Of a DNA stretch of 22,859 bases, positions 6,856-15,598 are shown piece after piece. The position numbers were made by a program, and so were the translations under genes. The notes beneath the pieces were generated by a model. It saw nothing but the letters and a program-made list of their open reading frames with translations, was not told the origin of the DNA and ran no database searches. The DNA is taken from positions 1 through 22,859 of the forward strand of contig JAIBBE010000004.1 of the NCBI GenBank assembly GCA_019694835.1. The letters are read 5' to 3'. Numbering within the stretch: the first letter of the stretch is position 1; every line of letters starts with the position of its first letter. This DNA comes from Fimbriimonadaceae bacterium (GTDB lineage: Bacteria; Armatimonadota; Fimbriimonadia; Fimbriimonadales; Fimbriimonadaceae).

Positions 6856-7313
6856 GTACCGCTGGCAACCTGCCCGCGAACCAACGAAGTACCGCTGGCG
6901 TCCCGCCGGCATCCGGAACCCTCGCCTCGGTCACACGCGGGACCTCTCCTCTAGCCCCGCTCCTCCGCCACGGTCGGCTTCTCTGACCGCGATGAGGAGG
7001 GCGCAGGAGAGGGGAACCCATGCCCCCTATGCATCCATCCTTCCACGGGTGGATGCCCCGCCCTCCCCGTGCCATCGAACCCGAAGTTCCGCCGTGAGTG
7101 GTAGTCCGCGCCCCCTCCATGTCCCTCCCCCGTGCCGGGAGAGGGGACGTGCTTGCCCTTTCTCCGCTGACCCGTGACTCTAGGATTTGGGCGGAGTTTT
7201 CAAACACGTCCCCTCTCCCGGTACGGGGGAGGGACAGGGAGGGGGCGCGGACTCTCAGACTCGCCTCTCCTCGGCGCAATCCGAATGCCTTGCCGGCGGG
7301 ACGCCAGCGGTAC
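6856..7313. repeat. Intergenic cluster of GC-rich palindromic repeats between pheS and the ABC gene
   Basis: This 476-bp gap holds nested inverted repeats and no gene. The outer pair is a 22-base arm beginning GTACCGCTGGCGTCCCGCC (6889-6910) and its exact reverse complement (7292-7313). The same arms occur inside argS at 13821-13891. A partial copy (GTACCGCTGGC) starts at 6856. Between the outer arms lie an imperfect palindrome (about 6943-7020), the sequence CTATGCATCCATCCT (7027-7041, also at 10221-10235), and a large palindrome at 7104-7252. Transcribed from pheS, it would fold into long hairpins. Confidence 0.85.
7104..7252. repeat. Large GC-rich palindromic element, 48-bp arms
   Basis: Two 48-bp arms (7104-7151 and 7205-7252) are reverse complements with only two mismatches and are separated by 53 bp. 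Each arm also holds a small hairpin of its own (CTCCC...GGGAG). The design is the same as the element inside argS at 14144-14279, and the core sequence is similar (CCCTCCCCCG...GGGAGAGGGGAC). Confidence 0.85.
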
Positions 7314-7322
7314 AACCACGAT

Positions 7323-13075: not shown

Positions 13076-15598
13076 TTAGTCAGGAGTGGGCTCCGCGCTG
13101 CGCTCCATCCGCTCGGGGGCCGAGATTCCGAGGATGTCAAAGACACCCTTGAGCCCGATTCGCGCCGCCTCGCACAGGGCCATTCGCGCTTGACTGAGGG
13201 CGGGTTGGTCGGTTTGGACGACGCGGCATCCATCGTAGAAGTGGTGATAGCTCCGGGCGAGCTCGACCGCGAAGGTGGTCAGTCGGTGAACTCCGTAGTC
13301 CTCCGCGCATCGGCGGACTTCGAACGGCAGGTCGAGGATCTTTTTAATCAGGGCGAGTTCGCGAGGGTCCCGGAGGAGCGAGAAGTTGGCACTGGCATAG
13401 TCGGCACTGATCCCCGCATCCTTAGCCTTATCGATGACCGAGCAGATGCGCGCGTGGGCGTATTGCACATAGAACACCGGATTCTCGTCGCTTTGCTTGG
13501 TCGCGAGGTCGATGTCGAAGTCCATGTGCGTCTCGTGGCTGCGCATGAGATAGAAGAATCGCGCTACATCCCGCCCGATCCGCTGCTGCTCGGCTTTATC
13601 CGCTTCTGGAGCCATCGTTTTGCCCAGTTCATCGATAAGATCGATGAGGGCGTAGATGTTCCCGTCGCGCTTTCGCATCGGGGCTGGTTTGCCTTCTTTG
13701 ACGAAGCGGACGATCTGGAAGATAACGACTTCAAGCTTTTCCTTAGCCTCTTGGAGAGCGGCTATGCAAGCATCTCGTTCTTCGGGGCTTCGGTAGATCT
13801 GCGCGTCGATCTCCGAAAATGTACCGCTGGCGTCCCGCCGGCTCCCCTGACCTTCCGAGGCTTCCGGATGCCGGCGGGACGCCAGCGGTACATTATCGGT
13901 CTTCTCTAACAACGCGGCGACGACCGCGGTAAGTCGACCTATGTAACCGTGATGGTCCGGGCCGAGGATGGTGATCATCTTATCAACGGGGCCGGTGCCG
14001 CGGACGCCGGAGGCGTCGGTCAGCTTGTCGCGGTGGTAGGCGACGTCACTGGCGATGTAGGTGAGACGTCCGTCGCGGCGGCGGAGGACGCGATCCATAT
14101 CGTCGGCGAATTTGGTTGAGCGGAGCCAGACCGTGCCGCCGGCCCCCCTCCCTAACCCTCCCCCGCCAGCGGGAGAGGGGACTGGTTCCGGCGTAACTCC
14201 AGTTTGAGACGAAAAACCTGGATCAGGGGCATTCGATCCGGTCCCCTCTCCCGCTTGCGGGGGAGGGTTAGGGAGGGGGTTCTCCGCCTGGCTATCGTCA
14301 TCGTCTTCGATCGGCTGTATCTGTCGCTCTACCTCCTCGATCTTCCCACCTTTTGCCATCTTCAAGACGAGGCGATAGGGCTCGTCGTCGGCGACTTGTT
14401 TGTCAAGAAGTTCCTGAAGGCATGCATCGACCGCCTTCTGGTCGTGGAGGGATTGTTCGGAGAACCAAGTGTCGAACTCGACACCGAAGGTGGCGAGGTC
14501 GAGTCGCTGCTTATCGAGCATGATGTCCTGGCTCTTTGACTGGAACCAAGAAATATCTTCTGTGCCAGTTAGGAGAATCTGTAGCTCGCCGTCGGTCTTC
14601 CACCGTTCTCGAATAACCTTTACTGGAAACTTCTCTCCATCTAACAATACGGTCAGGGACAGTTCGGATAACCCGAGCACTTCGTCTCGATGTGGTAAAC
14701 GTGCAGAAGTCACAAATTTTGCATAGACCCTGGCCATTTGCTCGTCGGGAACTTGCCCAGTCTGCTCGAATTCTCCATTTTCTTTCTTAAAGAGAACTGC
14801 TGTTATTCCAGGCTCGGCGCGAAAGAACCTAATCGCAGATGAGCCTTCCTTAAGTGCATTTCTCAGAATGTTTGCGGCAATTCCTGTGGATAAGTTGAAA
14901 CCTAGGTCTTCTCTCTCCATTTCCGCAAAGTCCATTAACTTTGGAGAATCTAAACTAGCAGAGTGAGATAAACCGGCGATCAGTTGTTCCGCAACAGCCG
15001 CGACATAGTCGCCTTTGTAGCCTTTCTCCGGAATCAACTTGCCCTCAACAAGCGCTTTTACAGACTCAGCAAACAATCTCATCTGCTCGCTGTTCACACC
15101 ATCGTTGATGTAGTACTCCCGATGCACGGCATTCCCAGCTGCTTCCAACACATTCGCCAAACAAGAACCGAACGCAGCACCGCGCCCGGATCCCACCGTT
15201 ATCGGACCATTAGGATTGACACTTACATATTCAACATTGATCTTCTTCCCCGAAGAAGGCGAACGCGCTAACGACGTGCCAACCGACAAAATCCGGGCCA
15301 CGTAATCGGAAATGAACTGGGGGCGAAGACGAAGATTCAGGAATCCCGGACCGGCTAACTCAGCCGACAGATCCGCATCGCCAGCAAGCGCTTCCAACAA
15401 AAGGGCACCGAAATCGCGCGGATTCATCCCGGCCTTCTTCGACGCGGTGAGGGCGATATTGCATGCGTAGTCGCCGTGCTCGGGGTTCTTGGTGTCAGCG
15501 ATCTCGGGGGTGCCGTAATCGGCATTGGTCAGGCGGCCCGAAGCGACCAACGAAGCGAGGGCGGCGGCGATTTTTTGGCTCAGTTCTTCTCGGATCAA
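13076..15598 (-). CDS. argS: Arginine--tRNA ligase, enlarged by three insertions
   Basis: This class I enzyme charges tRNA-Arg. The core is complete: N-terminal domain (1-100), the HIGH region NPNGPITVGSGRGAAFG (128-144), LATFGVEFDTWFSEQSL (368-384), VWLRSTKFADDMDRVL (490-505), GPDHHGYIGRL (546-556), the degenerate KMSKS region PMRKRDGN (640-647) and the DALR anticodon domain (709-840). At 840 residues it exceeds the usual 550-600. The extra length comes from about 210-352 (extra domain, low-GC DNA), 440-485 (large palindrome) and 570-593 (71-bp palindrome). The HIGH tetrapeptide is TVGS, without either His. The start is TTG with no Shine-Dalgarno; an in-frame stop lies three codons upstream, so no earlier start exists. 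As the only argS in view and with an open frame, it is probably functional. Confidence 0.95.
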   Translation of the reverse strand: MIREELSQKIAAALASLVASGRLTNADYGTPEIADTKNPEHGDYACNIALTASKKAGMNPRDFGALLLEALAGDADLSAELAGPGFLNLRLRPQFISDYVARILSVGTSLARSPSSGKKINVEYVSVNPNGPITVGSGRGAAFGSCLANVLEAAGNAVHREYYINDGVNSEQMRLFAESVKALVEGKLIPEKGYKGDYVAAVAEQLIAGLSHSASLDSPKLMDFAEMEREDLGFNLSTGIAANILRNALKEGSSAIRFFRAEPGITAVLFKKENGEFEQTGQVPDEQMARVYAKFVTSARLPHRDEVLGLSELSLTVLLDGEKFPVKVIRERWKTDGELQILLTGTEDISWFQSKSQDIMLDKQRLDLATFGVEFDTWFSEQSLHDQKAVDACLQELLDKQVADDEPYRLVLKMAKGGKIEEVERQIQPIEDDDDSQAENPLPNPPPQAGEGTGSNAPDPGFSSQTGVTPEPVPSPAGGGGLGRGAGGTVWLRSTKFADDMDRVLRRRDGRLTYIASDVAYHRDKLTDASGVRGTGPVDKMITILGPDHHGYIGRLTAVVAALLEKTDNVPLASRRHPEASEGQGSRRDASGTFSEIDAQIYRSPEERDACIAALQEAKEKLEVVIFQIVRFVKEGKPAPMRKRDGNIYALIDLIDELGKTMAPEADKAEQQRIGRDVARFFYLMRSHETHMDFDIDLATKQSDENPVFYVQYAHARICSVIDKAKDAGISADYASANFSLLRDPRELALIKKILDLPFEVRRCAEDYGVHRLTTFAVELARSYHHFYDGCRVVQTDQPALSQARMALCEAARIGLKGVFDILGISAPERMERSAEPTPD
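13821..13891. repeat. 71-bp palindromic element inserted in-frame in argS
   Basis: Perfect 22-bp arms (13821-13842 and 13870-13891) enclose 27 bp. The arms are identical to those at 6889-6910 and 7292-7313. Read from the argS strand, the element encodes residues 570-593 (VPLASRRHPEAS... to ...RRDASGT) without a stop or frameshift. These residues sit between two normal ArgS segments. Confidence 0.9.
14144..14279. repeat. Large GC-rich palindromic element inserted in-frame in argS
   Basis: The 39-bp arms (14144-14182 and 14241-14279) pair with a single mismatch across a 58-bp spacer. The design and core sequence resemble 7104-7252. It supplies ArgS residues 440-485, a low-complexity stretch beginning NPLPNPPPQAGEG and ending PSPAGGGGLGRG. 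The reading frame is kept. Confidence 0.9.
14541..14970 (-). other. Extra-domain segment of argS with low GC
   Basis: This stretch encodes about residues 210-352, absent from ordinary ArgS. By hand count, 14581-14940 is 47 % GC; neighbouring parts of the gene exceed 60 %. The low-GC zone continues to about 15240, over the HIGH region. The motif ILRNALKEGSSAIRFFRAEP followed by a Lys/Glu-rich strand pair and VTSARLPHRDE recalls the N-terminal domain of GspE/PilB/PilT secretion ATPases. That likeness is by eye only. Confidence 0.55.

Follow-up and report, generated by a model that had tools for sequence, protein, structure and literature searches.

A hypervariable domain cassette in the arginyl-tRNA synthetase of Fimbriimonadales-type Armatimonadota

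The argS gene on the window (the whole stretch of 22,859 nucleotides analysed here, from a Fimbriimonadaceae bacterium) raises the question of how a segment of low GC content with no counterpart in ordinary arginyl-tRNA synthetases (ArgRS) came to lie inside an essential translation enzyme, and what keeps it there. The gene and its features are listed in Table 1. Its product passes the curated equivalog model NCBIfam TIGR00456 with 324.9 bits (cut-off 261.65), and the Pfam domains follow each other in the order PF03485 (Arg_tRNA_synt_N), PF00750 and PF05746 (DALR_1); the first and the last score far over their cut-offs, the catalytic PF00750 barely so (26.2 versus 23.3). The first 20 rows of a Foldseek search with the predicted fold were all ArgRS, the best being 3fnr (E = 8.4e-24), and the named best relatives, among the best 120 of 2233 homologues, are mostly from Fimbriimonadaceae (Armatimonadota). 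The HIGH motif with both histidines is absent and the equivalog model is passed without it. The sequence T[IVL]GS occupies this position in 172 of 177 relatives, HLGH or HVGH in four more distant ones and TVAA in one. Because several Patescibacteria-type argS loci also lack HIGH (they have TLGN), its absence is not decisive for membership of the ArgRS family. Speculatively, having TVGS in place of HIGH might affect ATP binding or confer resistance to an inhibitor.

Table 1. Features of argS on the window (positions of the window; residues of the ArgRS protein)
Feature	Position	Strand	Basis
argS, arginyl-tRNA synthetase, 840 aa, TTG start as listed	13076..15598	minus	TIGR00456, Pfam domains, fold
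Residues 1-180, comprising the N-terminal domain and the first half of the catalytic domain	15059..15598	minus	98.3% identity to P0002
Class I HIGH motif site, occupied by T-V-G-S (residues 134-137)	15188..15199	minus	T[IVL]GS in 172/177 relatives
Exchange cassette, residues 181-375, after the MRLFAESV block and before FDTWFSEQSLHD	14474..15058	minus	alignment boundaries
Extra domain proper, residues 209-348, low GC	14555..14974	minus	alignment, GC
Residues 234-301, like the N-terminal domain of same-order pilus ATPases	14696..14899	minus	profile, fold model
Low-GC patch, about 47%	14541..15120	minus	GC count
Residues 376-840, rest of the catalytic domain and DALR anticodon-binding domain	13076..14473	minus	94-100% identity to P0002 outside two linkers
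Palindromic repeat pair, in-frame read-through in a linker (residues about 441-485)	14146..14277	.	sequence
Second palindromic repeat, in-frame read-through (residues about 570-593)	13820..13891	.	sequence

The initial annotation had described residues of about 210 to 352 as extra. In an alignment of the best 120 of 2233 homologues, a sample that leans to relatives of the window, only a few sequences contribute to most of the columns for residues 209-345, and the presence of about 140 extra residues (209-348) in the CP1 region was confirmed. The GC values counted by hand for the patch were reproduced on recount, with 46.9% for 14581-14940 and 47.4% for 14581-15120. The remainder of the gene had been credited with 60-70% GC; it is indeed richer in GC, but a value near 60% fits better (60.5% for 13076-14540 and 59.2% for 15241-15598, as against 46% for the insert). 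Directly upstream of the insert, at 14987-15300, GC is 52%, with a GC3 of 0.42 in residues 121-160, and the protein is conserved there. A frameshift or an artefact was considered as the source of the insert and rejected: the frame is open, the segment is homologous in frame to a protein domain, and large inserts also occur in chromosome and complete-genome records (L003, L009).

The resemblance of the segment to the N-terminal domain of GspE/PilB/PilT ATPases, noted by eye at first, found support in profiles and in a fold model of low confidence. The window's insert matched the profile of this domain with E = 2.4e-9 in a search among 44 inserts, and a profile search of 113 genomes gave a match in 66 at E ≤ 0.1, the best at 1.1e-5. 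With a model of the insert, predicted at low confidence (pLDDT 57), the first 15 rows returned by Foldseek were N-domains of the GspE/PilB/PilT type. Judged by sequence, the window's insert is a homolog of the N-terminal domain of GspE/PilB/PilT-type ATPases. It is like the N-domain of the GspE/PilB/PilT/VirB11-type enzymes in profile and apparently has a similar order of strands and helices, but unlike these enzymes it is located inside a synthetase and has no Walker-type ATPase domain: the Pfam family T2SSE gave no match in the insert at E ≤ 10, and no ATPase family matched the whole 840-residue protein at E ≤ 1. The idea of a new partner for an aminoacyl-tRNA synthetase therefore stands as far as the domain homology is concerned, but the ATPase part that should follow the domain is absent, and a partner role would be conjectural. 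The relatives do not have this domain in common, and the low-confidence model of the insert is not a Rossmann fold, so neither of the two alternatives named by the initial annotation applies.

The comparison with relatives showed that the extra domain occupies a site of unusual variability. For this purpose the cassette was defined as the sequence enclosed by the conserved blocks MRLFAESV and FDTWFSEQSLHD, cut by alignment anchors, and cassettes were grouped into families by single linkage at E < 1e-3. Partial or frame-broken sequences (L006, L014, L034, L035, L056, L060) were dropped before counting, as were L062-L080, mostly from other phyla with one Armatimonadetes locus (L064) included; removal of four fragments (L036, L049, L054, L173) and 14 duplicates from 195 sequences left 177 distinct ArgRS. 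The label Fimbriimonadales was taken from the titles of the records, and five of the 177 (L046, L047, L048, L052, L053) belong to more distant Armatimonadetes. The cassette measures 57-89 amino acids (median 62) in 129 of these proteins and 93-315 in the other 48. The 48 large inserts fall into 33 families without detectable mutual similarity, of which the largest has ten members; these are sequence families, and the number of folds could be smaller. The insert of the window (P0001) forms a family with only two others, P0013 and P0063, and the three are weakly related. Going by these alignments, strains and species carry either no large insert or one from 33 families, with roughly 30-250 extra amino acids. 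In P0091, P0101 and P0111 the extra sequence precedes a GYKGDY-like stretch, and therefore there is more than one acceptor point.

Across the ArgRS tree, large inserts come and go almost as if by chance: 37 changes in their presence were counted on the tree of the core, compared to a mean of 42.2 (range 36-48) in 200 shuffles. Among 42 pairs with a core identity of at least 95%, which are not independent of each other, 23 differ in cassette class, 15 have short cassettes in both members and four share the same large family. The closest case is that of P0069 (61 aa) and P0077 (222 aa), the cores of which are 99.8% identical while the cassettes differ by 161 residues in length; P0093 and P0097, with cores 99.6% and 98% identical to that of P0069, contain further unrelated inserts. 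Similarly, L008/P0051 (60 aa) and P0111 (180 aa) have cores that are about 99% identical. The hypervariability of this cassette in Fimbriimonadales-type Armatimonadota is our main finding.

The extent of the replaced unit can be read from the nearest relative of the window's enzyme, P0002, which has a core identity of 96.5% and an unrelated insert. Identity is 98.3% over residues 1-180, drops to 50% over 181-208 and to 28% in the insert (a forced alignment), is 67% over 349-375 and returns to 98.2% over 376-430. Identity is thus lost and regained sharply at the conserved flanks. Because 181-208 and 349-375 are also poorly conserved, the replaced unit comprises, besides the insert, about 25 residues of ordinary ArgRS on either flank; it runs from just past MRLFAESV to just short of FDTWFSEQSLHD, as delimited by the alignment. 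Further towards the C-terminus, residues 489-568 are 100% and 597-840 94.2% identical, and two linkers stand out with 64% (431-488) and 54% (569-596). Both of these linkers, which diverge from P0002, bear the palindromic repeats of Table 1, and pieces of the second repeat also occur at 6889-6924 and 7291-7314 of the window.

In two collinear 400-kb blocks, the sister genomes G001 and G090, whose argS inserts are those of L003 and L011, were searched for internal protein blocks of at least 40 amino acids that contain no conserved window and have conserved flanks on both sides. Such replaced blocks were found in two of 317 ortholog pairs (median identity 95.5%) and two of 327 (95.2%), or 4 of 644. 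The one in argS is the largest, with 134 versus 239 amino acids and a GC content of 49% and 40%. The other three, named by eye, are in a protein with an RGPSK motif, a prepilin-like protein and a small protein; the prepilin-like block, with 24 identities, has perhaps merely diverged. The frames of LeuS (913 and 913) and CysS (505 and 506) agree between the two genomes. For this one sister pair, argS is exceptional in its block replacement. In the RGPSK protein (284 aa, at about 1761379 of contig C1 in G001, and its counterpart in G090), the middle 109 and 106 amino acids are replaced and the ends are conserved.

Synonymous divergence distinguishes import of a cassette from its evolution in place. 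In the pair L009/L171, which has a common insert family, the core shows a dS of 0.144 and a dN of 0.018, and the cassette a dS of 1.40 and a dN of 0.288. Because the cassette dS is ten times that of the core, this cassette is an import and did not evolve where it stands, and because its dN/dS is 0.21 it is constrained; in this one pair, the insert is thus of outside origin and under purifying selection. For L028/L058, which also have a common insert, the values are similar (cassette dS 0.96, core 0.78) and mark the insert as old and vertically kept. Raised dS is not peculiar to large inserts, because some short cassettes show it too: among four short-cassette pairs, cassette and core dS are 1.72 and 0.79 for L020/L024, 0.78 and 0.52 for L018/L019, and 0.43 and 0.42 for L026/L030, and in L032/L045 the dS is raised, less than in L020/L024. 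The base composition of large cassettes is also distinct. GC3 is lower than in the own core in 12 of 15 (mean difference -0.128, p = 0.0015) and total GC in 11 of 15 (p = 0.007), the remaining four being not lower; for short cassettes the mean GC3 difference is -0.046, with 30 of 43 lower than the core (large versus short, p = 0.02). Acquisition of the domain by recombination into a housekeeping gene, as initially proposed, is supported by the alignment, the profile match and the dS of the sister case.

Searches for the source of the inserts gave little outside argS itself. When 13 joined inserts were compared with 113 genomes, matches were obtained in four genomes, one in each and all inside an argS frame (787-896 codons); these four are the known hosts, within the set, of four of the 13 inserts, and no such host was missed. 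Residues 204-352 of the window's enzyme found only themselves among 886 word-sharing candidates of 462-1470 aa, a search of limited sensitivity that missed P0013 and P0063 as well. No stand-alone relatives of the P0002 insert appeared at E ≤ 10 among 2043 word-sharing candidates. With Pfam, the curated cut-off was never reached for 24 inserts (those of the window, P0002, P0013 and P0063 and 20 more); the strongest sub-threshold match was DUF7801 (E = 3.9e-5) to the coiled-coil-like insert of P0022. PADLOC, run on ten whole proteins, gave two weak matches: the insert of P0002 matched a type IIG restriction enzyme (E = 0.036), and P0106 matched a cyclase (E = 0.027) in a part that is not the insert. 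The PHROGs gave one weak match among ten inserts (E = 0.086), the 13 joined inserts had no match in 50,697 phage records and the window's insert had none in viral contigs. In the PDB, the single match to the window's insert at E ≤ 10 was an unrelated flavin reductase (0.86). Nearly all tested inserts thus lack known relatives. The insert of P0097 showed a sub-threshold match to Bflower, the four-fold beta flower family (E = 0.0031).

An intein was considered and rejected for the window's insert. No intein family matched the whole protein at E ≤ 1, and the insert ends, LIAGLS and ISWF, do not have the residues usual at intein junctions, which are C or S at the start and HN followed by C, S or T at the end. 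A search for terminal repeats at the insert yielded a single imperfect 12-nt pair, taken as chance.

We propose that the CP1 region harbours a multi-allelic domain cassette of which the segment in the window is one allele, and assign a probability of roughly 0.7 to this reading. That cassettes are exchanged in Fimbriimonadales-type argS is, taken by itself, very probable. The insert site is predicted to be the tip of a helical hairpin. Swapping of the unit probably proceeds through homologous recombination in the conserved stretches of argS that flank the cassette, from environmental DNA or by other transfer, and the insert would fold as a domain that leaves aminoacylation intact. A dprA match is present in 61 of 61 genomes (53 over the cut-off), but dprA is not diagnostic of competence because E. 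coli also has it. Rare alleles would be favoured if a harmful or exploitative factor, such as a phage protein, a competitor toxin or an inhibitor, recognised ArgRS at the cassette surface. We favour such an antagonist because only a single feature of a single enzyme varies in this way, turnover occurs at the strain level and purifying selection is found where it could be tested; against it counts that no insert is clearly like a defence or phage protein. Selection of this kind for insert diversity is a tentative proposal. It is likewise possible, at less than even odds, that ArgRS is under diversifying selection of the kind seen in antigens and that a shared pool of nearly all orphan cassettes is swapped between strains to escape, or to bait, an ArgRS-targeting factor borne by phages, toxins or inhibitors.

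The main rival holds that the tip of the CP1 hairpin accepts almost any foldable insert, so that random fragments come and go with little effect on fitness. The inserts do look of many kinds, as random capture would give (that of the window resembles a pilus-ATPase N-domain and that of P0022 a coiled coil, and many seem helical by eye), and a large insert is missing from 129 of the 177 alleles. However, many proteins must have tolerant loops, and replaced blocks are nevertheless as rare as 4 in 644 ortholog pairs; furthermore, dN/dS values of 0.21 and 0.37 in two pairs whose members have an insert family in common indicate constraint, and the near-random turnover on the tree also speaks against neutrality, which we consider doubtful. 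It is rather improbable that the inserts serve to link ArgRS with a partner or location specific to each lineage, which in the window's case might be the machinery of pili or of secretion. Extra functions often come with domains added to synthetases, and the window's insert is homologous to a pilus-ATPase domain, but its ATPase part is lacking, and near-identical strains with different inserts or with none would be odd for a stable role. Selfish in-frame elements, similar to inteins or palindromic elements, that insert into argS are very unlikely. The palindromic repeats that are read in frame in two linkers of the window's argS would suit them, whereas the insert families have no detectable common sequence, the window offers neither terminal repeats beyond the one imperfect pair nor an intein match, and further copies were absent from the four genomes that own one of the 13 searched inserts. 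Very fast divergence of a single ancestral domain in place would accommodate the weak relationship of the P0001, P0013 and P0063 inserts, but can hardly be reconciled with the tenfold dS of the L009/L171 cassette, the coexistence of insert-free and insert-bearing alleles at 99.8% core identity and the several-fold differences in insert length.

The exchangeable cassette that we prefer as explanation has partial counterparts in known systems. In the fold, its site corresponds to the region called CP1 / Ins-1 in class I arginyl-tRNA synthetases, and lineage-specific insertions in synthetases are well known; the known ones are old and lineage-wide, whereas the Fimbriimonadales-type inserts are unrelated and come and go between strains. 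In the target-recognition domains of type I restriction HsdS subunits and in mosaic surface and penicillin-binding proteins, a variable segment is swapped by recombination between conserved flanks, as in the argS cassette. Unlike these, argS encodes an essential translation enzyme, and its alternatives are unrelated in sequence and length and include having no insert. The palindromic elements of Rickettsia, palindromic repeats that lie in frame inside coding genes, resemble the two linker repeats of argS but have no relation to the CP1 domain. Essential enzymes with lineage-specific insertions are already known, for example RNA polymerase, where the BEAN and HABAS insertions are described as polyphyletic domain insertions at recurrent sites (PMC11515920). 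The argS inserts are similar in being polyphyletic and placed at recurrent sites of an essential enzyme; the BEAN and HABAS insertions differ in characterising whole lineages and in being recurrent homologous domain types, and the word 'strain' does not occur in the text of that paper (PMC11515920). Among the papers listed by searches of an open-access collection, none reported a hypervariable ArgRS insert or a tRNA synthetase in which unrelated domains are swapped between strains.

The least variation would be expected in housekeeping enzymes, yet one position in ArgRS varies like a surface antigen in enzymes that are otherwise up to 99.8% identical. If selection drives this diversity, ArgRS would be a battlefield so far unseen, on which each insert hints at the adversary. 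If the diversity is neutral, the CP1 region of ArgRS would be a natural platform for domain insertion and a record of new domains entering proteins. In both cases, the birth and turnover of domains would become measurable in populations, because the pool, of which nearly all domains are orphans, sits in a context that is fixed, essential and easily amplified.

Two observations concern other synthetase genes. In part of the order (G016, G042, G044, G045, G058 and G059) the LeuS frames are long (1029-1213 aa), and an interruption around position 231-239 of the model might mark a second site for inserts; the frame has the same length in G058 and G059. In G045, contigs C9 and C5 seem to contain a second argS-like frame (571 aa) beside one of 1134 aa.
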